A stretch of DNA of 47,451 nt. It comes from an uncultured bacterium. Lineage in GTDB: Bacteria > Krumholzibacteriota > Krumholzibacteriia > LZORAL124-64-63. The translations under genes were made by a program, and so were the position numbers. Location of the stretch: positions 1 through 47,451 of the forward strand of contig CAIWHK010000047.1 of the NCBI GenBank assembly GCA_903912525.1. The letters are read 5' to 3'. Under the pieces are notes generated by a model that ran no database searches, was not told the origin of the DNA, and was given only the letters and a program-made list of their open reading frames with translations. Positions 33,493-46,467 of this stretch are shown one piece after another; position 1 is the stretch's first letter; each line of letters starts with the position of its first letter.

Positions 33493-34059
33493 TCAGCGGA
33501 ACAGCGCCTTGACCGCGCCGAACGTCGACTGTTCGCCGGCCACGACATCCGACCAGTTGAAGGCGACCTCGCGAATCTCCAACCGCGGGCTGGGATTCAG
33601 CGACAGCACCACCAGGTCGACCCGCTTCACGTTCTCGACGACCGGGAACGGGTAGATGGCCGGCGCGGTCGAGCCGATCGGCCCGACGAACACGGGCGAA
33701 CTGCCGATGAGCGCGCTGGACGCGTCGAAGAAATCCAGGCGGAACTGCGAGATGCCCTCGCTGGCGACGTTGACGTCGTTCCACAGCACGAAGTCGCCGA
33801 GCGCCTGCGGCGTCGCGAAGTCCAGGTGGATCGTGCCGATGATGCCCGGGTTCACGGCGAAGCCGTTGAACCAGCCGGGCGCCGTCAGGAGGCCGTCGCA
33901 GATCTGGTTGATCGTGAAGCCGCCCTGGCTGGGGATCGTGGTCGAGGCCGTGATCTGGCCGGGGCCCATGACCATGGCGCCGGACGGCGCGGCCAGCAGG
34001 GCCAGGCTCAGGAGCAGCGCGGGAAGCAGGGCGCGCCGGGACGCTGAGATGTGAATCAT
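33493..34059 (-). CDS. secreted discoidin-like (galactose-binding fold) protein
   Basis: A 188-residue protein with a signal peptide (RRALLPALLLSLALLAAPSGA). It has one beta-sandwich domain resembling F5/8-type or related carbohydrate-binding folds: ICDGLLTAPGWFNGF, IHLDFATPQALGDFVLWND, ISQFRLDFFDASSALIG, and a final EIREVAFNW strand. No catalytic residues are apparent. I start it at ATG 34059, with a G-rich ribosome binding site nine bases upstream; the 14 residues before it in the longer frame precede the signal peptide. Function is unknown beyond likely ligand binding outside the cell. Confidence 0.7.
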   Translation of the reverse strand: MIHISASRRALLPALLLSLALLAAPSGAMVMGPGQITASTTIPSQGGFTINQICDGLLTAPGWFNGFAVNPGIIGTIHLDFATPQALGDFVLWNDVNVASEGISQFRLDFFDASSALIGSSPVFVGPIGSTAPAIYPFPVVENVKRVDLVVLSLNPSPRLEIREVAFNWSDVVAGEQSTFGAVKALFR

Positions 34060-34116
34060 GTTGTCGAACCCCCCAGATTCTCGAGTGAGTGGTTTGTGCA
34101 TACCGGTTGCGGTCGT

Positions 34117-34638
34117 TCAGCGATAGCTCGCCTTGAGGTCGCCCCATGCGGTGGCCTCGGCCGGCACGGCGTCCGAGACGACGCGGATGGATGCGGTCAT
34201 GTCGATGCCCATTGCCGAAAAGGGGCCGACGATCGGCCCGGTCACCGTGACCGGCACGCCCGCCTGCCAGTCGTACATGAACGACACCGCGCCGATGTAC
34301 TGCTGCGGGTTCGGGAATCCCTCGTCATCGACGACCTGCAGGATGACCGACACCAGCGGCGTGTTCCCCCCACCGGGCGTGATCGGCAGCGAACAGCTGA
34401 ACGACGACCAGCTCGGGTTGATGGTGCCGTTGATGATCGGCGTCGTCGTGACCAGCGAACCGTCGACCCAGACGAAGACCATGGGATCGGGATCGCCCTC
34501 GAAGATGCCGTCGGTGTCGGGCACGTGCCCGTGGATGTTCTCGACGAAGATCGTGACGGCCGCCGCCGCGGGACCGGCGACGAGCGCCAGCAGCAGCGAC
34601 AGGGACAGGCTGGCGAACAGACGTGAGCGAAGCGTCAT
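34117..34638 (-). CDS. secreted C2-like domain protein
   Basis: A 173-residue protein with a signal peptide (LFASLSLSLLLALVAGPAAAA) and a single C2-like domain. The calcium-loop pattern DTDGIFEGDPDPMVFVWVDG is followed by TTPIINGTINPSWSSF, matching the C2 consensus of DPYV...NPxW. C2 domains bind Ca2+ and membranes or act as structural modules; a secreted bacterial copy is less common. The ATG at 34638 is preceded by GGGGGAA. The long upstream frame is a shadow of the kinase gene. A T-rich patch and a palindrome copy lie upstream. Confidence 0.7.
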   Translation of the reverse strand: MTLRSRLFASLSLSLLLALVAGPAAAAVTIFVENIHGHVPDTDGIFEGDPDPMVFVWVDGSLVTTTPIINGTINPSWSSFSCSLPITPGGGNTPLVSVILQVVDDEGFPNPQQYIGAVSFMYDWQAGVPVTVTGPIVGPFSAMGIDMTASIRVVSDAVPAEATAWGDLKASYR

Positions 34639-34761
34639 GGCGAGTTCCCCCGGGATCAGGATGAAGCGTTGGACCGCCACGGCAGAGGTTCCGGTCGGCC
34701 GTGCGTCCAAATAGCATACCATTTTTGTTTTGTTTTTGTGGCCAAAAAATGGCGGGGTGAG

Positions 34762-34775
34762 TTGCGCCGGCGCAA
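34762..34775. repeat. TTGCGCCGGCGCAA palindrome, copy 5
   Basis: A perfect 14-bp palindrome, 57 bases past the stop of the kinase gene at 34833 on the minus strand. On that strand it is followed by a CCATTTTTTGG run, so it may be part of a terminator. Confidence 0.75.
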
Positions 34776-34832
34776 GTCGTTGAAACGCTGCCCTCAACAC
34801 CAGAACGCGGCAAGCGCATGCCGACGCTGGGT

Positions 34833-36614
34833 TCACTCCGGATTGGTCAGCACGATCTCGCGCACCCAGACCCCCGTGACGCCGGTTTCGCGACCGGCAA
34901 GGGCCCGAAAACGCGCCAACGGAGACCCCGCCTCGACACCCGCGACCGGCGACGACGACGACGGCGACGACGACGGCGAAAGTCCACCCACCCCGCGCAG
35001 CCGCGCGATCGCGGCCGCCGGCGCTGCGGCGTCTTCCACGGGACGTCCCGCCACCGGCTTGCCCAGTCCCGCGACCGATCCCTCGAGCTCGGCCACCGGC
35101 TCGGGGCTGGCGACGATCAGGAATGTCTCGCGTCCGCCGGCGCTGGTCACGGTCCAGGCCACCTCGCCGCCGTCCATCCTGCCGGGCAGTTCGACGGCGT
35201 CGTCGGCCGGCAGCGGGTTGCTCGCGGCGAATCCCGGCTGCGGGAACAGCAGGTAGGCCTCGCCGCGGTCGTCGGCGTTCAGCACGTAGACCCACAGTTT
35301 TCGCGAGGCGCGCCAGCGCAGCGACAGCCGGTCGCCGGGCGACACGCGGTCGCCGGTGGCCACGGACGTCGGCGCGCCGGCGCCGTGGCGCAACAGGGAG
35401 GCCTCGACGGCATAGGCGCCGGCAGGCATCGTCTCGGGTCGCCACGGACCGGTTCTCGACGCGGCCAGGATGACGAGTGACGCCACCGCGACCACGGCCA
35501 TACCGACCAGCACGGCGGCGCGTCGCCGCGACCGGGGACGCGGCGGCTCAACGGCGCCGACCCGACCGTCGAATCCGGGCCCGCGCAGCGGCGCCACGGC
35601 CTCGAGCGCCGCGGCAAACGCCTGCGCAGTGGTGCAGCGCAGCGCCGCGGTGGGCGCGATCGCCCGCTCGACCGTCTCGACCAGGGCCTGCGGCAGCCCC
35701 GCGCGCTTCTCGGCAAGCGATGGCCGCGGGCCCGCCTCGGCGGCCGCGCGCAGCTCTTCGAGGGATCCCTCGGGGAAGGGATGCGCGCCCGCCAGCGCGT
35801 ACCACACGAGCAGGCCGAGCGCATACACGTCGGTGCGCACGTCCGGGCCGCCGCCCAGCAGCAGTTCGGGCGCCATGTACATCGGCGAGCCGGCGATGCC
35901 CTTGGGCTTCGGCGTCGCATCGCCCAATGAAGGCAACGGGTGGCCCAGCCCGAAATCGGCCAGCACCCAGCGTCCGTCCGCGTCGCGGACGACGTTCGCG
36001 GGCTTGACGTCCCGGTGCAGCAACCCTGCGGCATGCACGGCGGACAGGGCGCCGCCGATCTCGCGGCCCAGGCGGACAGCTTCGGCGGGTGCGAGCGGCC
36101 CCGACGCGGCGATCGCGTTCTCGAGCGTCTCGCCGCGCACCAGTTCCATCCGCAACCCGATGCGGCCGTCGTGCACATCGATGCCGTGCACGGTCACGAC
36201 ATGCGGATGGCGCACGCGGGCCAGCGCCCGGCCCTCGGCCAGCAGCAGTGCTCGCTCGGCCTCCGCCCCGCCTCCCGCGCCCCCGGGCCGGACCAGCTTG
36301 AGGGCGACCTCGCGCCTGAGTTGCGGATCCCAGGCGCGCCACACATCGGCGCTGGAGCCGACACCCAGTCGCTCGAGCAGCAGCAGGTCGCCCCAACGCA
36401 GCGCCTCTTGGTCCGCGTCGACAGGGTCCGCCCCGACCGGGGACGTGCGCTGCAGGCCGCGGTTGTAGTTGCCGATGCGGTCGAGGTCACGCAGGGCCTC
36501 GACCACGGCGCGCTCGGTCGGGTCGATGTCGCGCACGACCGCATCCCAGTCGATGCTGTCGCCGTCGGACACCGAGCCGAGAAGGTCGTCGATCTGCTCG
36601 CGGTCAGGCTTCAT
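34833..36614 (-). CDS. Ser/Thr protein kinase with C-terminal DUF4384-like domain
   Basis: A 593-residue membrane kinase. After an N-terminal helical lead, the kinase domain shows RLGVGSSADVWRAWD and VALKLVR (glycine loop and Lys), HRDVKPANV (catalytic loop) and LADFGLG (DFG). All catalytic residues are kept. A single membrane segment (RRAAVLVGMAVVAVASLVILAAS) leads to an outside domain matching DUF4384: SPGDRLSLRWRASRKLWVYV, NADDRGEAYLLFPQPGF, GGRETFLIVASPEP. DUF4384 domains are often linked to CHAT proteins. ATG 36614 has GGAGGAG upstream and overlaps the sigma gene by 11 bases. The C-terminus has a DDDDGDDDGESPPT-type low-complexity region when read on the plus strand; in the protein it reads SPSSSPSSSSP. 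Confidence 0.88.
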   Translation of the reverse strand: MKPDREQIDDLLGSVSDGDSIDWDAVVRDIDPTERAVVEALRDLDRIGNYNRGLQRTSPVGADPVDADQEALRWGDLLLLERLGVGSSADVWRAWDPQLRREVALKLVRPGGAGGGAEAERALLLAEGRALARVRHPHVVTVHGIDVHDGRIGLRMELVRGETLENAIAASGPLAPAEAVRLGREIGGALSAVHAAGLLHRDVKPANVVRDADGRWVLADFGLGHPLPSLGDATPKPKGIAGSPMYMAPELLLGGGPDVRTDVYALGLLVWYALAGAHPFPEGSLEELRAAAEAGPRPSLAEKRAGLPQALVETVERAIAPTAALRCTTAQAFAAALEAVAPLRGPGFDGRVGAVEPPRPRSRRRAAVLVGMAVVAVASLVILAASRTGPWRPETMPAGAYAVEASLLRHGAGAPTSVATGDRVSPGDRLSLRWRASRKLWVYVLNADDRGEAYLLFPQPGFAASNPLPADDAVELPGRMDGGEVAWTVTSAGGRETFLIVASPEPVAELEGSVAGLGKPVAGRPVEDAAAPAAAIARLRGVGGLSPSSSPSSSSPVAGVEAGSPLARFRALAGRETGVTGVWVREIVLTNPE

Positions 36615-37203
36615 GTCCCATCTCCTCCGCCAGCCGGCGCAGGGCCCGCTGCACCGCCATGCGCACGGCATCGCGGCTCGCCCGACCGGTCATGGCGGCG
36701 ATCTCGCCATAGTCGAAATCCAGCTCCAGGCGCAGGTGCAGCAGTTCCTGGTCCGCGGGTCCCAGCGCGGCCAGCCCGCGTTCGTAACGCGCCAGCGCCG
36801 CACTGCCGATGGCCGCTTCCAGGGGGGATGGAGCCGGATCCGGCATGTCCTCGGGGAACTCCCCGGGGCCCGGGCGCCGAGCCGACCACCGCACCTGGTC
36901 CCTGATACGATTGAGGACGGCTTGGCGAACATAGGCCTGGAAACCGCCGGGGCCGCGGACCTCGATATGGTCGAGGCCCTGCACGGTGCGCAGCAGCGTC
37001 TCCTGCACCAGGTCGGACGTGTCCAGCAGCGAGCGCGCGTGATGCGGCAGGCGGCCGCTGGCCCAGCGCTGCAACCGCGGCAGGTACCGCGCCAGCAGCG
37101 CCTCGCTCGCGCGCGCGTCGCCGCCCTTGGCCTGCAGGAGCAGCTCACTGGTCGCCAGCAGCGAGATGTCGTTGTTGGGCTGCTGCCCCGGATGTTGTGA
37201 CAC
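36604..37203 (-). CDS. ECF-type RNA polymerase sigma factor
   Basis: A 199-residue sigma70-family ECF protein. Region 2 appears as LLARYLPRLQRWASGRLP through SLLDTSDLVQETLLRTVQGLDHIE, and region 4 as ALGPADQELLHLRLELDFDYGEIAAMTGRASRDAVRMAVQRALRRL. GTG 37203 is preferred because GGGAGG lies eight bases upstream; an upstream in-frame GTG at 37212 abuts that site. It sits between the CHAT gene (31-base gap) and the kinase gene (11-base overlap), so all three are one operon. No separate anti-sigma gene is present, so the kinase or CHAT protein may control its activity. Confidence 0.88.
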   Translation of the reverse strand: MSQHPGQQPNNDISLLATSELLLQAKGGDARASEALLARYLPRLQRWASGRLPHHARSLLDTSDLVQETLLRTVQGLDHIEVRGPGGFQAYVRQAVLNRIRDQVRWSARRPGPGEFPEDMPDPAPSPLEAAIGSAALARYERGLAALGPADQELLHLRLELDFDYGEIAAMTGRASRDAVRMAVQRALRRLAEEMGHEA

Positions 37204-37234
37204 GTCTTCCACCTCCCTTCCCGAACCGTCCGCT

Positions 37235-40200
37235 TCAGTCGCCGGAAGGCGTGAACGCGGCCCACGCGAACGGATGCGTATCGAGCCCCGCCGCCCGCCG
37301 CGCGGCGATCACGTCGCACGACGCGCGCCGCATGGCTTCGCCGGCGCTCGTGACGCCGGCCGCCCGGGCAGCGTAAAGCCGCGCCATCAACGCGACGGTC
37401 GCGTCGTCGTCGATGGGCCACAGGCTCGCGATCACCGCATGGGCGCCGGCCAGGTGGAAGGCCCGCGTCAGGCCCAGGCGCCCTTCGCGCGCCCACGTGT
37501 CGGCCACACCCGACTCGCACGCCGACAGCACGACCCAGTCGACCCCGCGCAGGTCCAGGGTGGCGACTTCCTCCGCCGTCAGCAGGCCCTCGTTCTCGTC
37601 GCCGTCGAGCTCGCCGGCGCGATCGGCGCCCGACAGCGCCAGCACGGCGCGGCGGCCCAGCCAGGGCGACGGCCCCGACTCAGACTTCGCAGCCGGCACG
37701 GACGCCAGGCCGCCCACGCCGCGCATCCCGGGCGGGTTCAGGGCGCAGTCGTCGTCCAGCAGCACCGCGTGCGTTGCCAGGTGCAGCAGGCTGCGTCCGG
37801 GCGCCGCGGCCTTGAACGCGGCCTCGGTGGCCGCGCCGCCGCGCAGCAGCATCTCGTCGCCGCCGTGCACGCGCGCGATCTCATCGATCTCGCGGCCTGT
37901 GCCCGGCAGGGGCGGGAACGCCAGCGGGCGATCGCTGCCGCAGGCGCGCAGCACCGACCGCGTCGACACGCCCACCGGCTTCGGGGCGCCTTCGCGGACC
38001 GCCGCCTGGTCGAAGGCGACGTCGCCCAGCGCCAGGAGGGTCCCGGCTTCAGGAGGCGCCGGCGCGGCCAGCAGGTCGCGCTCGGCGGCCAGCACGTGGA
38101 TGGTCGGGCCCGACTCGACGAGGTAACGGTTGCGCCCATCCGGCAGCGCGCCCCACGGCAGCTGCGTCAGCGGGCCTTCGGCGACCAGGTGCACGTCGCG
38201 CGCGCCCTTGGCCAGGGGAGCGACGCGATCCCAGGTGAGCGCGCGCACGCGCTTTCCCGCGTCACGGCATGTCCGTTCGGCCGCCGCCGCGGCGCCCGCG
38301 GCCGGGGCGCGCCCGCAGGCCGCCAGCCACGCGGACAACGCATCGTTGATCGCGGCGACCGGGCCCAGGTCGCGCACGCGGGCCGGCCCGTCTGATCGCA
38401 GGACGAACGCGAGCATGTGCGGCTGTTGCCCGGGCCGGGATGCGCTCGCAAAGGCGACCAGCGCCTCGTCGGCGCCCAACGCCGCCTTCAGGTCCGCCAG
38501 CCCGATGTCGGCACGCGCGCCATCAGCCGCCGTGCGCGGAGCCACCGCAGCCCAGCGCCGTCCGGCGTCGTCGGCTGCGGCCTGGAGTTCCGCCAACTGC
38601 TGCTCATCCTGGCCCGAAGCGCCGCCGGCTTGCCGCACCTGCAGCTGGGCCAGCTTGCGTTCGGCCTGCGTCCAGGCAGCGTGGGCGGCGCGCAGGCCCG
38701 CGTCGCGGCCGGCGACCAGGGGCGGGCGCCGCCGCGTTGCCTCCGCGGCCACCAGGCCGCGCCAGCGGATCAGTTCGTCCCACGTCGCGGCGGCATCCGC
38801 GGCGCCCGCCGTCGGCGCCAGGGCCAGCAGCGCATCCAGCGGCTGGTTGCGTTCGGCGGCCAGCGCCAGGCCCTCGCGCTCGGACAGGGCGCGGACATCG
38901 CGCACGAGCAGCGACCGGGACAGGCGCGCGCCGGCCAGCGCCAGGCGGCGCGCCTTGTTGTCGTCGCCGCTGCGCGCCGCCGCGGCGCTGCGCTCGGCCA
39001 GGGCCTCGACTTCCACCTTCGAGCCGCGCAGCCCGTGCGCATCGAGGTCGTCTTCGATGGCGCGGTCGAGGCGAACAACGGCCGCGTGGGCGCCCAGGCG
39101 CGACTGCAGGCTCAGCTGCCGGGTCCTGAGCGTCACCACGGAGGTCCAGAACGGCTCGGCCAGCGCCAGCTCGTTGGCTTCGGCGGCCTCGGCCTCGGCC
39201 AGCGCGGCGCGCGGATCCGTTTCGGCCAGCATCTCGGCCAGGCCGGCGCGCGCCTCGGTGACGCCGTCGACGTGCACCGAACCGTCGCCGGCCCCGTTGC
39301 GCGCAAGGAGCGCGCGGTACCCGGCGACCGCCGCCGTGGTGTCCCCCAGGGCCGCGTTCGCGTTGGCCAGCAGGACCTGCGCCCACAGCGTCTGCTCGTG
39401 GTCGGGCCCGAGGTTCTGCAGGTAGACGGGGATCACCTGCTCGATGACCCGCTTCGCGCGCGCGAAGTCGCCGATCTCCATCAACGCGATCACCAGGTTG
39501 CCGCGGTGGAGGGCCAGGTCCGACGCGCTGTAGCCGGGCGTCGACTCGGCGATCGCCACGGCCTTCAGGCCGAGGTCCACGGCGCGGGCGAGCTGGCCGT
39601 TGCGGTAGGCGAACGCGCACGCGCGCTGCAGGCCGAGCGTGTTGGCGGGATGTTCGGAGCCGAGCTGGCGCGCGTACTCGCCCATCGCCGCGTCCAGTTC
39701 GGCGCGCGCGCCGTCGATGTCGCCGAGCTTTTCCAGCTGCGAGGCGATCTGCGCGTGGAAGTCGCCGAGGCGCCGGTCGCGCGGCAGGTCGAGGCGCTCG
39801 CGCACGGCCAGGCCCGCCCGCGCCGCCACCAGCGCCGAGTCCGGCCGGCCCAGCATCATGAAGGAGTTGCCCAGGCGATACCACGACTCGGACACGTCGC
39901 GATGCTCATCGCCGAGCCGGAAGCGGCGCAGCGCCAGCGCGCGGCGCGCATGCCCCAGGGCTTCCTCGCGGGCGCCGGTGTCCGTCAGGATCAGGGCCAG
40001 GGCATCGCGTACCAGCGCGCGCTGCAGGTCGGCCTCGGGCGTCGCCGGCAGTTCCAGGGCCAGGGCGCGCCGCGCGCTGCGCACGGCCACCGAGTCGGCG
40101 AACGAGCGCTGGACGGCCCGCGCGCGCGCCACCGTCACCAGCGCCGAGGCCAGTTGCATCCGGTCGGGCGATGCCGACGCGTCGAGGCCGGCAACCGCGA

Positions 40201-40393
40201 GCGATGCGAGGCTGTCCGCTTCGCCGACGCGCCGCTGGTCGAGCGCGGCGGTCGCGCGCTCGAGCAGCGCACCGATATTTGGGGCGGCCTTGCGGGCAGC
40301 CGGGCGAGTAGCCGGGCGGTCGGCGGCGCCGGCGGCGCCGGCCGTGAAGGCGGCGAGCGTGAACGCGAGCACTATCGTCTTGCGTGCGGTCAT
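37235..40393 (-). CDS. exported TPR-CHAT protease-like protein
   Basis: A 1052-residue protein. A signal peptide (TIVLAFTLAAFTAGAAGAAD) is followed by about 600 residues of TPR-like helical repeats (GHARRALALRRFRLGDEHRDV, RVIEQVIPVYLQNLGPDHEQT). The C-terminal CHAT domain, a caspase-like clan CD cysteine peptidase fold, has the catalytic His875 in LLHLATHAVLL and Cys959 in WVVLSACESGVAD. Later segments include AHAVIASLWPIDDDATVALM and HPFAWAAFTPSGD. Both catalytic residues are present. Export would be unusual, since many CHAT proteins act in the cytoplasm; the signal peptide is clear. It is the first gene of the operon with an ECF sigma factor and a DUF4384 kinase. Confidence 0.88.
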   Translation of the reverse strand: MTARKTIVLAFTLAAFTAGAAGAADRPATRPAARKAAPNIGALLERATAALDQRRVGEADSLASLAVAGLDASASPDRMQLASALVTVARARAVQRSFADSVAVRSARRALALELPATPEADLQRALVRDALALILTDTGAREEALGHARRALALRRFRLGDEHRDVSESWYRLGNSFMMLGRPDSALVAARAGLAVRERLDLPRDRRLGDFHAQIASQLEKLGDIDGARAELDAAMGEYARQLGSEHPANTLGLQRACAFAYRNGQLARAVDLGLKAVAIAESTPGYSASDLALHRGNLVIALMEIGDFARAKRVIEQVIPVYLQNLGPDHEQTLWAQVLLANANAALGDTTAAVAGYRALLARNGAGDGSVHVDGVTEARAGLAEMLAETDPRAALAEAEAAEANELALAEPFWTSVVTLRTRQLSLQSRLGAHAAVVRLDRAIEDDLDAHGLRGSKVEVEALAERSAAAARSGDDNKARRLALAGARLSRSLLVRDVRALSEREGLALAAERNQPLDALLALAPTAGAADAAATWDELIRWRGLVAAEATRRRPPLVAGRDAGLRAAHAAWTQAERKLAQLQVRQAGGASGQDEQQLAELQAAADDAGRRWAAVAPRTAADGARADIGLADLKAALGADEALVAFASASRPGQQPHMLAFVLRSDGPARVRDLGPVAAINDALSAWLAACGRAPAAGAAAAAERTCRDAGKRVRALTWDRVAPLAKGARDVHLVAEGPLTQLPWGALPDGRNRYLVESGPTIHVLAAERDLLAAPAPPEAGTLLALGDVAFDQAAVREGAPKPVGVSTRSVLRACGSDRPLAFPPLPGTGREIDEIARVHGGDEMLLRGGAATEAAFKAAAPGRSLLHLATHAVLLDDDCALNPPGMRGVGGLASVPAAKSESGPSPWLGRRAVLALSGADRAGELDGDENEGLLTAEEVATLDLRGVDWVVLSACESGVADTWAREGRLGLTRAFHLAGAHAVIASLWPIDDDATVALMARLYAARAAGVTSAGEAMRRASCDVIAARRAAGLDTHPFAWAAFTPSGD

Positions 40394-40611
40394 TCGTCAG
40401 CGACTCCCTGGTCAAAGCGATGCGGCCGCAACGCTTTCATCGCAACTGTCAGTGCCGCAATAAGTTGAAAAGAAAACGGCACCGGGCGGCACCGCTGCTT
40501 TCCATTATGATACCACTTTTCCGCGATAGTGGATAAAAATGATAATCTTTCGCAAGACGGGAAAACGAGACGGCGGGACAAGCTGGCAACACCGCCGGTC
40601 GCGCCCCTGTC
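40394..40611. other. A+T-rich promoter region of the CHAT operon
   Basis: There is no gene here. A locally A+T-rich stretch (40500-40555) contains an inverted repeat CCACT...AGTGG. On the minus strand it reads TGGTATCAT, a possible extended -10 element for the CHAT operon. The left part is the downstream flank of the ABC permease gene. Confidence 0.4.
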
Positions 40612-42018
40612 CTAGGCCATCCGCACCCACCGCACCAGCGTCCGGAAGCTGGGCGGCTTCCCGGTCATCAGCAACCCGATGCGGAACACCTTCGACGCGA
40701 ACCACAACGCCCCCACCGCGCCGACGGCCGCCACCAGCACGCTCAGCCAGGTCTGCCACAGCGGCGGCGGCGAACTGGAACTCATCCGCAGCAGCATCGC
40801 GTAGAGGTTGACCGGCGGCAGGAAGCTCATCGCCACGGCCAGCGCGCCGTCCGGGTGACGGGTGATGGGCAGCCAGAGCAGCCAGGGCAGCATGTTGATC
40901 ATCATGACGGGGCTCATCAGCGTGCCGGCCTCGCTGACGTCGTTGACCGCGGCGCCGATCGCGCCCATCAGGCCCGCCATCATCGCGTACGACAGGATGT
41001 AGAACACGACCAGCCAGGCCAGCAGGGACGGATCGACCAGGTCGAGCACGGCGAACGAAGCGAGCGCCGCCAGCCCCATCGCCGCGTAGATCCCGAGCAT
41101 CACCAGGCCGACGCCCATCTGCGCCAGGATCTTGCCCGACATCAGTTCCATCGGCGAGGCGGCCGCCAGCAGCACCTCGACCACGCGGCTGGACTTGTCC
41201 TCGACGGTGTTGGTCATCAGCTGCGAGCCCGTCGACATGACCGACATCAGCAGCAGCGCCATGAAGCCGGCGGGCACCAGCAGGTTCAGCGCCTCGTTCG
41301 ATTTCCGTTCGCCCTCTGGCGTCACAACGCGGGTGGCGGCGCCGCTGACTTCCGTCATGGCGGCCACGCGCTGCGGTTCCAGGCCCGCCGCCTCGACGCG
41401 GGCCTCGACCAGCGTCCGCGACAACGCGCCGCGCAGTTCATCCTGCAGGCGATCGTCCAGCTTCGGCGGCACATAGAGGTCGTAGGCGCCGTAGATACCG
41501 CCGTCCGCGGCGGCGACGGCGTTCCCGTGGATGACGATGACGGCCAGGGGCGCGCTGGTGTCGGCCGCGGCGTCGCGGGTGCGCGCGGCCAGGCGCGCCT
41601 TCCAGTCGTCGAGCGATGCGGCCTCGGCATCCGTCAACCGCAGCGCGGGCGCCTCGCCCATCGCCGTGCGCAGGGCCTGGTCCATGGCGACGGACGCCGC
41701 CGCCCCGCCCACGGCCTGGGCGCCGGCCGGCAGGCGGGTCGCCACTTCCTCGCGCAACCGGGCGCCTGCTTCCAGCCGCCGGCGGCCCAGCTCGGCGGGC
41801 GACAGTTCGCGCCCCAGTCGCGGGGCGATCGCGCCGGTGGGGTCGATCACCGCGATGGTGCCCACGACGCGCGGCGCGCGCTCGTCCATCATGCGCGGCA
41901 TGACGAAGGCCATCAGGCCGATGATGGCCGGCAACACCAGCACGCCGACGACGAAGCTGCGGGTCATCACCGTGGCGACGAACTCGCGCCGAGCCACCCA
42001 GCCGACCTTGTTCAGCAT
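40612..42018 (-). CDS. ABC-2 type transporter permease
   Basis: A 468-residue membrane subunit of an ABC exporter, of the NatB-like group. The start MLNKVGWVARREFVATVMTR is typical. One membrane segment follows (VVGVLVLPAIIGLMAFVM), then a large extracytoplasmic domain of about 200 residues and five or more C-terminal membrane segments (FMALLLMSVMSTGSQLMTN, KILAQMGVGLVMLGIYAAMG). EDKSSRVVEVLLAAASPMELM is the conserved coupling-region motif. I chose ATG 42018, with GGAGG nine bases upstream, over ATG 42054. It overlaps or abuts the ATPase gene, so the two form one exporter. Substrate unknown; relatives export sodium or lipids. Confidence 0.83.
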   Translation of the reverse strand: MLNKVGWVARREFVATVMTRSFVVGVLVLPAIIGLMAFVMPRMMDERAPRVVGTIAVIDPTGAIAPRLGRELSPAELGRRRLEAGARLREEVATRLPAGAQAVGGAAASVAMDQALRTAMGEAPALRLTDAEAASLDDWKARLAARTRDAAADTSAPLAVIVIHGNAVAAADGGIYGAYDLYVPPKLDDRLQDELRGALSRTLVEARVEAAGLEPQRVAAMTEVSGAATRVVTPEGERKSNEALNLLVPAGFMALLLMSVMSTGSQLMTNTVEDKSSRVVEVLLAAASPMELMSGKILAQMGVGLVMLGIYAAMGLAALASFAVLDLVDPSLLAWLVVFYILSYAMMAGLMGAIGAAVNDVSEAGTLMSPVMMINMLPWLLWLPITRHPDGALAVAMSFLPPVNLYAMLLRMSSSSPPPLWQTWLSVLVAAVGAVGALWFASKVFRIGLLMTGKPPSFRTLVRWVRMA

Positions 42019-43231: not shown

Positions 43232-43843
43232 ATGGCCAATTCACCGACACCCTCCGACGCCGCCGCGCGCACCCACCAGGTGACGCTGGCGCTGCATGCC
43301 GCGCGCGCCGGCGACCCCTCGGCATTGAACGAGGCATTCCAACTCGTCTACGACGAGGTGCGCGCCATTGCCCATGCCCGGGTGGCGCGCGCAGGTGGCG
43401 GCTCCACGCTCGACACCACCGCCGTCGTCCACGAGGCGTATCTCAAGTTGGCGCGCCACGGCGAGATGGCCTGGGAAGATCGGCAGCATTTCCTGGCCGT
43501 CGCTTCGACCGCCATGCGCCAGGTCCTGCTGGACCACGCGCGCCGGCACCTGAGCGCCAGGCGCGGCGGCGGCGCCGCCCACGTGCCGCTGACGGACATC
43601 GACGCGGCGGTCGAAAGCCAGGCACGCGACATCCTGGCGCTGGACGCGGCCCTGTCGCGCCTGGCCGCACTTGACCCCCAGTTGGCGCACCTGGTCGAGC
43701 TTCGCTATTTCGGCGGCCTGACCATCGAAGAGACCGCCCTGGCGCTGGCTGTCAGCGACGCCACCGTCAAGCGGGCCTGGCGACGGGCGCGCGCCTTCCT
43801 TCACCGCGAACTCGTCGGCGCCGACGCGCCCGGGAAGCCATGA
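43232..43843 (+). CDS. ECF sigma factor (TIGR02999-like)
   Basis: A 203-residue sigma factor of the ECF group often paired with Ser/Thr kinases. Region 2: LNEAFQLVYDEVRAIAHARV, LDTTAVVHEAYLKLARH, WEDRQHFLAVASTAMRQVLLDHAR. Region 4: LAALDPQLAHLVELRYFGGLTIEETALALAVSDATVKRAWRRARAFL. It overlaps the kinase gene by four bases (ATGA), so expression is coupled. No ribosome binding site is obvious before ATG 43232, so translation may be weak or the start may differ. This is a separate sigma/kinase pair from the one at 34833-37203. Confidence 0.88.
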   Translation: MANSPTPSDAAARTHQVTLALHAARAGDPSALNEAFQLVYDEVRAIAHARVARAGGGSTLDTTAVVHEAYLKLARHGEMAWEDRQHFLAVASTAMRQVLLDHARRHLSARRGGGAAHVPLTDIDAAVESQARDILALDAALSRLAALDPQLAHLVELRYFGGLTIEETALALAVSDATVKRAWRRARAFLHRELVGADAPGKP

Positions 43844-46467
43844 GCACGGACGATCCCGCCCGCTGGCGTCGCCTCGACGCCATCCTGGACGAACTCCTGT
43901 CGATGCCGTCGGGGAAACGCGCCCGGCGCCTGACCGAACTCACGGCGGGCGATCGTGAATTGCGTGACGAGGTCGAGGACCTGCTTCGGCGCGACGAGAT
44001 CGACGACACGCTGCTGGACCACGCCGCCTCCGAGCACTTCAACGCCCTGTTGGGAGCCGCGGGCCAGGCGCTGTCGGCGGCCCCGGCCCTGGCGGACCTG
44101 GCCGGTCGACAGGTCGGGCCTTTCCAGATCGTGGGCCGCCTCGGCGAAGGTGGCATGGGCGTCGTCTTCGAGGCCCGGCAGACCCACCCCGACCGCGCGG
44201 TGGCCCTCAAGGTGCTTCGCTCCGGTGTCTTCGCGGGTTCACAGCAACTGCGCCTGTTCCGGCGCGAGGCCGAAAGCCTGGGCCGGCTCAACCACCCGGG
44301 CATTGCCGCCATCCACGATGCCGGGCGCACCGAGGACGGCCTGCACTGGTTCGCCATGGAGCGGGTGGAAGGACAGACCCTTGACGCCTGGCTGCGCGCG
44401 CGGCCGCCGGCGGTCACGCGCGCGGAGATCCTGGCGCGCGTGACGGTCTGCCTGGCGATCTGCGACGCGATCTCGCACGCCCACCAGCGCGGCGTCGTCC
44501 ACCTGGACCTGAAGCCGACGAACGTCATGGTCCTGGCGCCTGCCGACGCGGGCGAACCACCGGCGGTGAAGGTGCTCGACTTCGGCATCGCCCGTTTCAT
44601 CGAGGGCGAGGCGGGGCCGACCACCGGCGGCACCGGAGCGCGCAGCTTCCTGGGCACGCTGGCCTACATGAGCCCCGAGCAGGCCGACGGCGACGCGCGC
44701 GACCTCGACGTGCGCAGCGACCTCTACTCGCTCGGCGTCCTGTTCTACGAGATGCTCACCGGCAACCTGCCCATCGACGTGCGCGGCCTGGCCCTTCCCG
44801 AGGCCGTGCGGCTGATCCGGGAGCGCGGACCGGCGCGGCCGGCGGAATCCTGCCGCCTGGCGCGGGGCGACCTGGAGACCGTCGTCCTGAAGGCGCTGGC
44901 CAAGGACCCCTCGCAGCGGTACCAGAGTGTCGCGGCGTTCGCCGAAGACATCCGCCGCTGGCGGGACAACCTGCCGATCTTCGGCCGCCCTTCCAGCACC
45001 GCCTACCAGTTGCGGAAGATCGTCGTGCGGCACCGGGCCGTGATCGCCTTTGCCGCGGCATTGCTTCTGACCCTGGTAGCCGCGGTCGGCGGCACCACCT
45101 TCGGTCTTGTGAGGGCCCGTCGGGCCGAGGCCGTCGCGCGCGCCGAGACGGCCACCGCCGAGAAAACGGCGGCCTTCCTGGAATCGGTGTTCCGGGTGTC
45201 GGACCCCGGCGAATCCCGCGGCAGCGCGGTGACCGCTCGCGAGTTGCTCGACCATGCGGTCGCCGACGTCGACACGCAGCTCGTCGACCAGCCGCGGGTG
45301 CGCGGGCGGCTGCTGGCGTCGATGGGCAATGCGTACCGACAGCTCGGCCTGTACCAGGAGTCGCGCCCGCTGCTCGAGGAAGCGGTGAAGCTCGAGCGCG
45401 AGGCTCTCGGTCCCGACGATCCGCGCCTCGCGCGCAGCCACTATGCGCTGGCCGGCCTGCTGCGGCGGCTGGGCGAATTCGACGCGGCGCGCGTGCACTA
45501 CCAGGAGGCGCTGGCGATACGCGAGCGGGGCGGCACTCCGGACGACACGGCGGTCAGCCTGACCGGGCTGGCGAACCTCGAGGTGGACGTGGGCCACACT
45601 GTCGAGGCGAGCGAACTCTACCGCCGCGCGCTGGCCATCACCGCGAACCACTCGGGCAGCGACTCGCCGCGCTATGCCTCGCTGCTCTCGGGGCTGGCGT
45701 TGGCTCAGTGGCGTCTGGGAGAGGCCGACTCGGCCCGCGCCATGCTCGAGCGCGTTGTCACCATCCAGCGGCGGCACCTGGAGCCGGACGACCTGGACCT
45801 GGCCTGGAGCCTGACCGTGCTGAGCACGTTCTACGCGGAAGGGGCCCAGCGGGCGCAGGCCCGCGCGCTGTGCGAGGAGGCGCTGGCCGTGCAGGAACGC
45901 GCCCTCGGTCCCGAGCACACGGACGTGGCCGAGACGCTCGACACCCTGGCGAATCTCCGGCGCGGGGATCGCGAATACGGCCAGGCGCTGGCGTTGCACG
46001 AGCGCGCGCTGGCCATCTGGGAAAAGGCGGTCGGCGCCGATCATCCGACCTACGCCATGGTGCTCGACAACCGCGCCCGCGACCTGGCCAGCCTGGGCCG
46101 CCTGGCCGAAGCGATGCCCGACGCGGAGCGTGCCCGCAGCATCCTGTCCAAAACGCTCGAGGCCAACCACCCGTCGCGGGCCTACAACCTGGTGAACCTG
46201 GCCGTCATCTATCGCGATGCCGGGCAGCCTGCGCGGGCGCGAATGGCACTCGATGAGGCATTGGCCATCCGGACGGCGGCCTACGGCGACGACAGCGTCC
46301 AGGTCCTGGAAGTCGTCATCGAGTTGGGACGGGTCAGCCGGCTGCAGGGCAGGTCGGACGAAGCGCGGCGGCACTATGAGCGGGCGCTGAAGATCACCGA
46401 GATCCAGGACGAGACCGAAGAGGTGAAGACCTCGCTCCGTGCCGAGTTGGCTGCCGTCGACTCGTGA
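43840..46467 (+). CDS. Ser/Thr protein kinase with TPR repeats
   Basis: An 875-residue membrane kinase. The kinase domain has GRLGEGGMGVVFEARQ and VALKVLR, a catalytic loop HLDLKPTNV (HLD instead of HRD, common in bacterial kinases), LDFGIARF and GTLAYMSPEQADG. One membrane segment (VIAFAAALLLTLVAAVGGTTF) separates it from about 400 residues of TPR repeats (LLEEAVKLEREALGPDDPRLA, LCEEALAVQERALGPEHTDVA, LHERALAIWEKAVGADHPTYA). TPRs outside the membrane probably bind peptides or proteins, and the kinase likely controls the co-encoded sigma factor. Its 3' end overlaps the run-on end of the broken FlgD-domain frame on the minus strand. Confidence 0.9.
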   Translation: MSTDDPARWRRLDAILDELLSMPSGKRARRLTELTAGDRELRDEVEDLLRRDEIDDTLLDHAASEHFNALLGAAGQALSAAPALADLAGRQVGPFQIVGRLGEGGMGVVFEARQTHPDRAVALKVLRSGVFAGSQQLRLFRREAESLGRLNHPGIAAIHDAGRTEDGLHWFAMERVEGQTLDAWLRARPPAVTRAEILARVTVCLAICDAISHAHQRGVVHLDLKPTNVMVLAPADAGEPPAVKVLDFGIARFIEGEAGPTTGGTGARSFLGTLAYMSPEQADGDARDLDVRSDLYSLGVLFYEMLTGNLPIDVRGLALPEAVRLIRERGPARPAESCRLARGDLETVVLKALAKDPSQRYQSVAAFAEDIRRWRDNLPIFGRPSSTAYQLRKIVVRHRAVIAFAAALLLTLVAAVGGTTFGLVRARRAEAVARAETATAEKTAAFLESVFRVSDPGESRGSAVTARELLDHAVADVDTQLVDQPRVRGRLLASMGNAYRQLGLYQESRPLLEEAVKLEREALGPDDPRLARSHYALAGLLRRLGEFDAARVHYQEALAIRERGGTPDDTAVSLTGLANLEVDVGHTVEASELYRRALAITANHSGSDSPRYASLLSGLALAQWRLGEADSARAMLERVVTIQRRHLEPDDLDLAWSLTVLSTFYAEGAQRAQARALCEEALAVQERALGPEHTDVAETLDTLANLRRGDREYGQALALHERALAIWEKAVGADHPTYAMVLDNRARDLASLGRLAEAMPDAERARSILSKTLEANHPSRAYNLVNLAVIYRDAGQPARARMALDEALAIRTAAYGDDSVQVLEVVIELGRVSRLQGRSDEARRHYERALKITEIQDETEEVKTSLRAELAAVDS

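Follow-up and report, generated by a model that had tools for sequence, protein, structure and literature searches.

A TPR-CHAT protein, a sigma factor and a DUF4384 membrane kinase encoded together in Krumholzibacteriota: a putative modular envelope-signaling system

Gene content of the locus

The DNA analyzed here, referred to throughout as the window, is contig CAIWHK010000047.1 (47,451 nucleotides) of GenBank assembly GCA_903912525.1, a 4.29 Mb draft in 72 contigs from an uncultured bacterium of the phylum Krumholzibacteriota. Between positions 34,833 and 40,393, entirely on the minus strand, it encodes in 5' to 3' order a TPR-CHAT protein, an extracytoplasmic function (ECF) sigma factor, and a Ser/Thr kinase carrying a transmembrane helix and a DUF4384 domain. 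The CHAT and sigma genes are separated by 22 bp, and the sigma and kinase genes overlap by 11 bases when the ATG at 36614 is taken as the kinase start. An initial annotation, made from the sequence alone, had described these three genes as co-encoded, with an intact His875/Cys959 pair in the CHAT protein; Pfam and NCBIfam models together with the gene coordinates confirm this content, and both residues lie exactly at the positions claimed.

The CHAT gene (37235..40393) encodes a probably exported protein of 1052 amino acids. Its CHAT domain (residues 724-1052; 37238..38224) is matched by Pfam with an E value of 2e-52 and 178.8 bits against a cutoff of 24, with TPR repeats on the N-terminal side. 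His875 (codon at 37769..37771) sits in the motif HLATHA and Cys959 (codon at 37517..37519) in LSACESG, and both are aligned in 12 of 12 relatives and then in 21 of 22 divergent members, the 22nd (L240) stopping at its contig end. An apparent loss of the active site in some kinase-linked loci was traced to an artifact of pattern matching that this alignment corrects. With the domain above cutoff and both residues in place, the protein belongs by sequence among the CHAT peptidases, its proteolytic activity being a prediction. In the structure model (mean pLDDT 77.7, pTM 0.68) TPR-type helices form most of the protein, and Foldseek comparison to solved structures returned human separase as the best match (E 3.2e-11) along with Csx29 (8eey_B; E 1.1e-9, TM-score 0.50 by target length); the architecture, as modeled, is that of a TPR-caspase-fold protease. 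Two further CHAT genes occur in the same genome.

Residues 1-24 of the CHAT protein (40322..40393), MTARKTIVLAFTLAAFTAGAAGAA, followed by D, combine a charged start, a hydrophobic core, and an AxA motif, and so resemble a Sec signal peptide. Export was judged by a simple home-made rule, which passes 11 of 14 kinase-linked CHAT proteins, 12 of 12 of those linked to anti-sigma-like proteins, 1 of 41 kinases, and 0 of 81 sigma factors, and which lets through 598 of 3509 other open frames as well. By this signal the window protein is probably exported. The CHAT proteins of three other loci (L058, L114, L115) have a C-terminal hydrophobic, anchor-like stretch past the CHAT domain.

The kinase protein (593 amino acids; 34833..36614) has a reading frame open up to 36671, with the ATG at 36614 the likelier start. 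Pfam matches to Pkinase (E 3e-33) and DUF4384 (E 1e-11) both exceed their cutoffs, and Lys106, Glu127, His200, Asp202, Asn207, and Asp220 are invariant in an alignment of 18 kinases. A single transmembrane helix, residues 363-386 (35457..35528), is indicated by the structure model, by hydropathy, and by charge; six Lys or Arg residues precede it and two follow, a bias that places the kinase inside and the DUF4384 domain (35097..35342), a domain common to the anti-sigma-like proteins described below, outside. The earlier placement of CHAT outside the membrane, kinase across it, and sigma factor within the cell fits these signals. The kinase model (pLDDT 75.0, pTM 0.50) consists of an N-terminal helical piece (residues about 3-57), the kinase, the transmembrane helix, a largely beta region with DUF4384, and, after it, a loop at 517-566 that is poorly ordered and modeled with low confidence. 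This loop contains a near-invariant Arg540, a candidate cleavage position in view of the preference of orthocaspases for cutting after positively charged residues (PMC6426788). The helical extension (residues 1-57; 36444-36614) carries a DGxxxDW motif, recurs in most sigma-linked kinases with or without DUF4384, and is a candidate sigma-docking piece.

The sigma factor (202 amino acids; 36604..37212) scores above cutoff for Pfam Sigma70_ECF and Sigma70_r2 and for NCBIfam sigma70-ECF, and far below it for TIGR02999 (24.4 bits against 126.15). In region 2.2 the usual DAED is replaced by D64-T65-S66-D67 (37012..37023), a candidate phosphosite. Hanks-type kinases phosphorylate ECF43 sigma factors within region 2.2, according to passages of PMC8999054 and PMC13147305; the former gives the EcfP motif as STTA, phosphorylated on the second Thr, and the latter describes a second EcfK phosphosite in the linker. 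Once duplicate loci were removed, Thr stood at the second DAED position in 20 of 20 sigma factors encoded upstream of a kinase-DUF4384 protein, a figure inflated by relatedness because many of the 20 were found through similarity to the window sigma, and in 6 of 8 next to other kinases, in 0 of 13 that precede transmembrane DUF4384 proteins (a 14th being gapped at the site), and in 4 of 43 others. This signature fits activation by phosphorylation. The window sigma carries a Thr-Ser pair that could be phosphorylated, and control through region 2.2 is plausible on sequence grounds.

Recurrence of the module

Searching 80 genomes of the phylum with the window sigma, at E values up to 1e-22, returned 20 places in 11 genomes, the window's own included, and all 20 neighborhoods were examined. 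A kinase lies directly downstream in 19, while the contig of the 20th (L213) stops 645 bases downstream. The linked kinase bears DUF4384 in 14 of the 20 (the kinase of L106 is broken by a contig end). A CHAT gene adjoins the pair in 8 of these 14 (the window, L202, L204, L205, L207, L209, L212, and, convergently, L036), which stem from four genomes and hence are not independent, and in none of the 6 places outside the kinase-DUF4384 class.

A profile search anchored on CHAT, over 80 genomes, gave 38 rows read as 36 genes in 23 genomes, of which 34 were examined (G012:C538 and G017:C66 were left out). Five CHAT genes occur with a sigma factor and kinase-DUF4384 (the window, L036, L205, L207, L212). 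Eight others are followed by a sigma factor and a transmembrane DUF4384 protein of 265-299 amino acids that has no kinase domain (L037, L038, L040, L042, L043, L044, L045, L214), and one (L041) by a sigma factor and then the contig end. Sigma-kinase-CHAT is the commonest order in the recurring module.

Other phyla were covered by a scan of named genomes, comprising 80 loci, with whole-genome follow-up of one Eisenbacteria and one planctomycete genome. Gene labels in the loci come from profiles built iteratively on the fetched sequences, some of them checked against Pfam. Sigma factor, kinase-DUF4384, and CHAT are consecutive in L145 (Eisenbacteria) and L159 (Planctomycetia), and kinase-DUF4384 is followed by CHAT in L175 (Pirellulaceae). 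The Eisenbacteria genome proved to hold two additional sigma-kinase-CHAT operons (L233, L234), a pair without CHAT (L235), and a sigma factor plus transmembrane DUF4384 protein with a convergent CHAT gene (L236). Among Planctomycetes, the triad occurs in L242 and kinase-DUF4384 then CHAT in L244; follow-up of the planctomycete genome added L240 (kinase-DUF4384 then CHAT) and L243 (DUF4384 then CHAT). The DUF4384 match is under the Pfam cutoff in L242 and L240. The module thus extends to Eisenbacteria and Planctomycetes, besides occurring in families of the window's phylum other than its own.

Because it recurs in other genomes, the arrangement is more than chance. A control used nine genomes, namely 8 of the 11 sigma-bearing ones plus the Eisenbacteria genome, with the kinase set drawn from 150 of 236 matches, reduced to 146 by removing four with DUF4384. 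Of 18 kinase-DUF4384 genes, 11 have a CHAT gene no more than 5 kb away, compared to 1 of 146 kinases without DUF4384 among the matches listed (Fisher p 8.9e-12, relatedness ignored). The same holds for 2 of 2 anti-sigma-like DUF4384 genes and for none of the 12 DUF4384 genes of other kinds. A CHAT match had led to the Eisenbacteria genome; leaving that genome out gives a kinase-DUF4384 count of 8 of 14. A purely accidental neighborhood, to which the separation of the parts in the relative G001 would lend itself, is extremely improbable given this control and the recurrence in several phyla.

A more serious alternative makes CHAT an output of the system. The kinase would sense through DUF4384 and activate the sigma factor, the sigma factor would autoregulate the operon, and CHAT would be an exported protease that handles the stress, so that linkage would reflect shared regulation. 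CHAT genes found without a sigma factor or kinase, sigma-kinase-DUF4384 pairs with no CHAT nearby, and variable gene order all suit this account, whereas the two comparisons above show CHAT tracking DUF4384 rather than sigma-linked kinases generally, CHAT also tracks DUF4384 when the domain is borne by an anti-sigma-like protein, and a kinase-CHAT fusion exists. We regard the output account as unlikely, though the strongest of the rival accounts.

The fusion is found in a member of the Chthoniobacterales (L150:1310-7447), where a single frame of 2045 amino acids comprises a kinase (residues 19-280), a transmembrane-like stretch (about 310-330), and a CHAT domain (1701-2025) that looks intact, with both catalytic motifs (HLATHG and LSACETG). 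To judge from its sequence, this protein would place CHAT opposite a kinase across the membrane in one chain.

Exchange of the inner component

In the window's own family, most CHAT-sigma operons hold, in the slot of the kinase, a membrane protein that combines the same DUF4384 domain with an N-terminus of anti-sigma-like character. The DUF4384 domains of these kinase-free partners and of the kinases align by hhalign with probability 98.5 and E 3.5e-15 over 105 columns. Their N-termini are anti-sigma-like by place and weakly so by sequence: that of L115 matches an NCBIfam anti-sigma model (E 2.8e-6) and zf-HC2 (E 0.004), both under cutoff, and N-terminal Cys pairs occur in L042, L058, L114, and L115, the other kinase-free partners lacking them. 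The initial proposal of a cascade without a classical anti-sigma factor holds at the window, but it overlooks the sister operons, where that position is taken by an anti-sigma-like protein bearing the same outer domain.

In a tree of 54 CHAT rows, four changes are needed for the kinase label and four for the anti-sigma label, compared to 9.2-9.3 in shuffles, none of 500 of which was as low; yet at least three kinase/anti-sigma changes are forced by well-supported branches. Partner types, that is, cluster but interchange. Kinase-linked CHAT proteins are scattered over several separate regions of the tree, and one clade, at 100/99, unites L036 (kinase), L042 (anti-sigma-like), and L039. The idea that the window operon arose by insertion of a kinase into a local CHAT-sigma-anti-sigma operon was considered and found unsupported: the window CHAT groups with that of the kinase-linked Eisenbacteria locus L233 (100/98) and two fragments from G001, not with the family's main anti-sigma-linked clade.

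Linkage and partner exchange together suggest that it is the outer DUF4384 domain that CHAT tracks, and that the inner half, which controls the sigma factor, can be exchanged. Passages in PMC7475262 and PMC6426788 report that DUF4384 occurs on orthocaspases and that kinase domains "often" precede it at the N-terminus. DUF4384 is present in 35 of 38 family genomes, often within a frame of about 600 amino acids. The DUF4384 at G000:C32:246234-246467 belongs to a secreted-looking protein of 632 amino acids (L119) away from CHAT, and in L117 the domain is joined to a transglutaminase-elicitor domain.

The constancy of DUF4384 as partner in both operon versions, with TPR-type helices forming the bulk of the CHAT protein, would also accommodate a non-cleaving co-receptor in which the TPR region offers DUF4384 a ligand, the caspase fold having a binding role only. 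Conservation of the aligned His and Cys across divergent members argues for catalysis, and we consider a co-receptor of this kind improbable.

Neighboring genes

A weak terminator-like hairpin (40475..40496, minus strand) separates upstream ABC-transporter genes from the CHAT gene; its occurrence is at chance level, with two such hairpins in the scanned region and 1.8 expected from shuffles. No Rfam match was found in 34000-41000, and a sigma-70 promoter scan of the region found none. When the ABC-transporter genes were used as phmmer queries against the fetched loci, the ATPase returned single ABC ATPase frames only, and the membrane subunit only the window. At 34117-34611 (minus strand), 221 bp past the kinase gene, lies a gene for a small, secreted-looking C2-domain protein, a possible target or operon part. 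The plus strand carries a second sigma-kinase pair at 43232-46467, in which the gene for an ECF sigma factor overlaps that for a transmembrane kinase with TPR repeats; this sigma factor exceeds the TIGR02999 cutoff, and its motif DTTA is near the ECF43 consensus QTTA.

Proposed mechanism

The interpretation we favor, with middling confidence, is a modular envelope-signaling system whose extracytoplasmic switch is made up of the outer DUF4384 domain plus the exported TPR-CHAT protein, and in which a kinase (in the window) or an anti-sigma-like protein (in sister loci) relays the state of the switch to the sigma factor. The TPR repeats would probably bind the signal, a damaged, misplaced, or foreign protein, upon which CHAT would act on DUF4384 by cleavage or binding. 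The changed state of DUF4384 would switch on the Ser/Thr kinase, which would phosphorylate the sigma factor of its own operon at or beside DTSD, and the phosphorylated sigma factor could then associate with RNA polymerase. In the sister loci these outer parts are combined with an anti-sigma-like protein, and that protein would set the sigma factor free instead. Gene linkage, topology signals, conserved active sites, partner exchange, and the Thr signature are features of the sequences that back this model; CHAT-DUF4384 contact, proteolytic action, sigma phosphorylation, and the signal are steps that we infer. Since CHAT tracks DUF4384 whatever lies inside, and DUF4384 occurs on orthocaspases, the simplest reading is that DUF4384 partners caspase-fold proteins and that the kinase or anti-sigma-like protein carries the message inward.

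A more specific version, which we offer tentatively as doubtful but worth stating, is a protease-activated receptor kinase: the exported TPR-CHAT protein would cut a Hanks-type kinase in its DUF4384 ectodomain, the kinase would in turn phosphorylate the ECF sigma factor, and DUF4384 would serve caspase-fold proteases generally for docking or as a substrate, with a kinase, an anti-sigma, or the protease itself as the interchangeable inner module that carries it. The nearest animal comparison is with the protease-activated receptors.

Several observations weigh against the favored model. Of the 14 sigma/kinase-DUF4384 pairs, 6 have no CHAT gene nearby, among them L210, whose contig stops within or at the kinase gene. 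Another of the six is the pair of G001, the nearest relative and the only same-genus one with the sigma factor: this pair has no CHAT gene in the 606 bases before it or the 6.8 kb after it, and the sequence adjoining the CHAT fragments of G001, which lie at contig ends and are 76-77% identical, contains neither a sigma nor a kinase gene; G002 and G003 gave no match to CHAT or to the sigma-kinase pair at the cutoffs applied. Of the 34 CHAT genes examined, 20 lack a sigma factor plus DUF4384 partner in the fetched stretch, in some cases owing to contig ends, and the CHAT-first order of the window was found in no other kinase-type locus. The active-site loops of the CHAT model are of low confidence. 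The window sigma, unlike EcfP, keeps both Asp of DAED, for which reason it is not filed as ECF43, and its conserved Thr lies one position before the EcfP phosphosite. With the parts apart in G001, even members of one genus differ in whether they have the operon, and the account of CHAT as an output keeps some weight. Neighborhood conservation, which the initial annotation had proposed as a check, is borne out insofar as the triad recurs across genomes and phyla, while the linkage is optional; the earlier interpretation as a whole is partly supported. One G001 contig (L048, G001:C101) has outward-facing copies of the CHAT-protein N-terminus at both ends, and contigs C23 and C72 end in CHAT C-termini; a duplicated CHAT gene probably broke the assembly there.

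Comparison with known systems

Craspase (Cas7-11-Csx29-Csx30-CASP-sigma) resembles the window system in having a TPR-CHAT fold with a His-Cys dyad (the 8eey_B match) and linkage to an ECF sigma factor. It differs in being CRISPR-guided, whereas the window CHAT looks exported and its partner is a kinase. A search for RAMP proteins (PF03787, the Cas7-11 effector) gave 0 matches in the window's 72-contig draft genome, with control matches in 4 of 14, and the window system is not a Craspase. Type III-E CRISPR, cited in the initial annotation as precedent, survives only as an analogy, the kinase not being a sigma-sequestering Csx30. A Craspase-like release, as implied by the initial annotation, might nonetheless be imagined, in which the kinase holds the sigma factor, CHAT cleavage frees it, and phosphorylation is secondary: Csx29 cuts Csx30 and so relieves sigma inhibition (described in part of PMC10028731), and the anti-sigma-like sister loci would operate in this way. 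At the window, where the partner kinase retains every catalytic residue and the sigma factor has a Thr signature missing from anti-sigma-linked sigmas, such release is very unlikely.

The anti-sigma-like sister loci recall DegS-RseA-RpoE, in which an outer protease acts through a membrane regulator on an ECF sigma factor (outlined in PMC10028731), although here the protease fold is caspase-like and the window version uses a kinase. Closer to the window are EcfP-PknT and EcfK-PknS (ECF43), which, in the relevant sections of PMC8999054 and PMC13147305, likewise have adjoining genes for a sigma factor and a membrane kinase without an anti-sigma factor, a Thr in region 2.2, and an extracytoplasmic domain on the kinase; the window sigma, by comparison, keeps D..D and misses the TIGR02999 cutoff, the sensor is DUF4384, and a CHAT protein, probably exported, is encoded alongside. 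ECF54 sigma factors have CHAT-domain proteins in their gene context, and proteolytic control has been proposed for them (PMC8999054); the ECF54 passage of that paper, whose example is an actinobacterium, mentions neither kinase nor DUF4384. In the orthocaspases that carry DUF4384, as portrayed in sections of PMC7475262 and PMC6426788, caspase fold and DUF4384 are coupled in one chain, compared to two chains here, with TPR-CHAT as the caspase-fold partner. A literature search found no paper joining CHAT with kinase-DUF4384 and a sigma factor, the main ECF classification and most subscription journals lying outside the search, so that earlier notice is possible.

If correct, the proposed system would join three threads: kinase-activated ECF sigma factors, CHAT proteins encoded near ECF sigma factors, and DUF4384 on caspase-like proteins. 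It would give DUF4384 a testable role as the partner of caspase-fold proteases, and it suggests that evolution swaps anti-sigma factor and kinase behind a constant outer switch.

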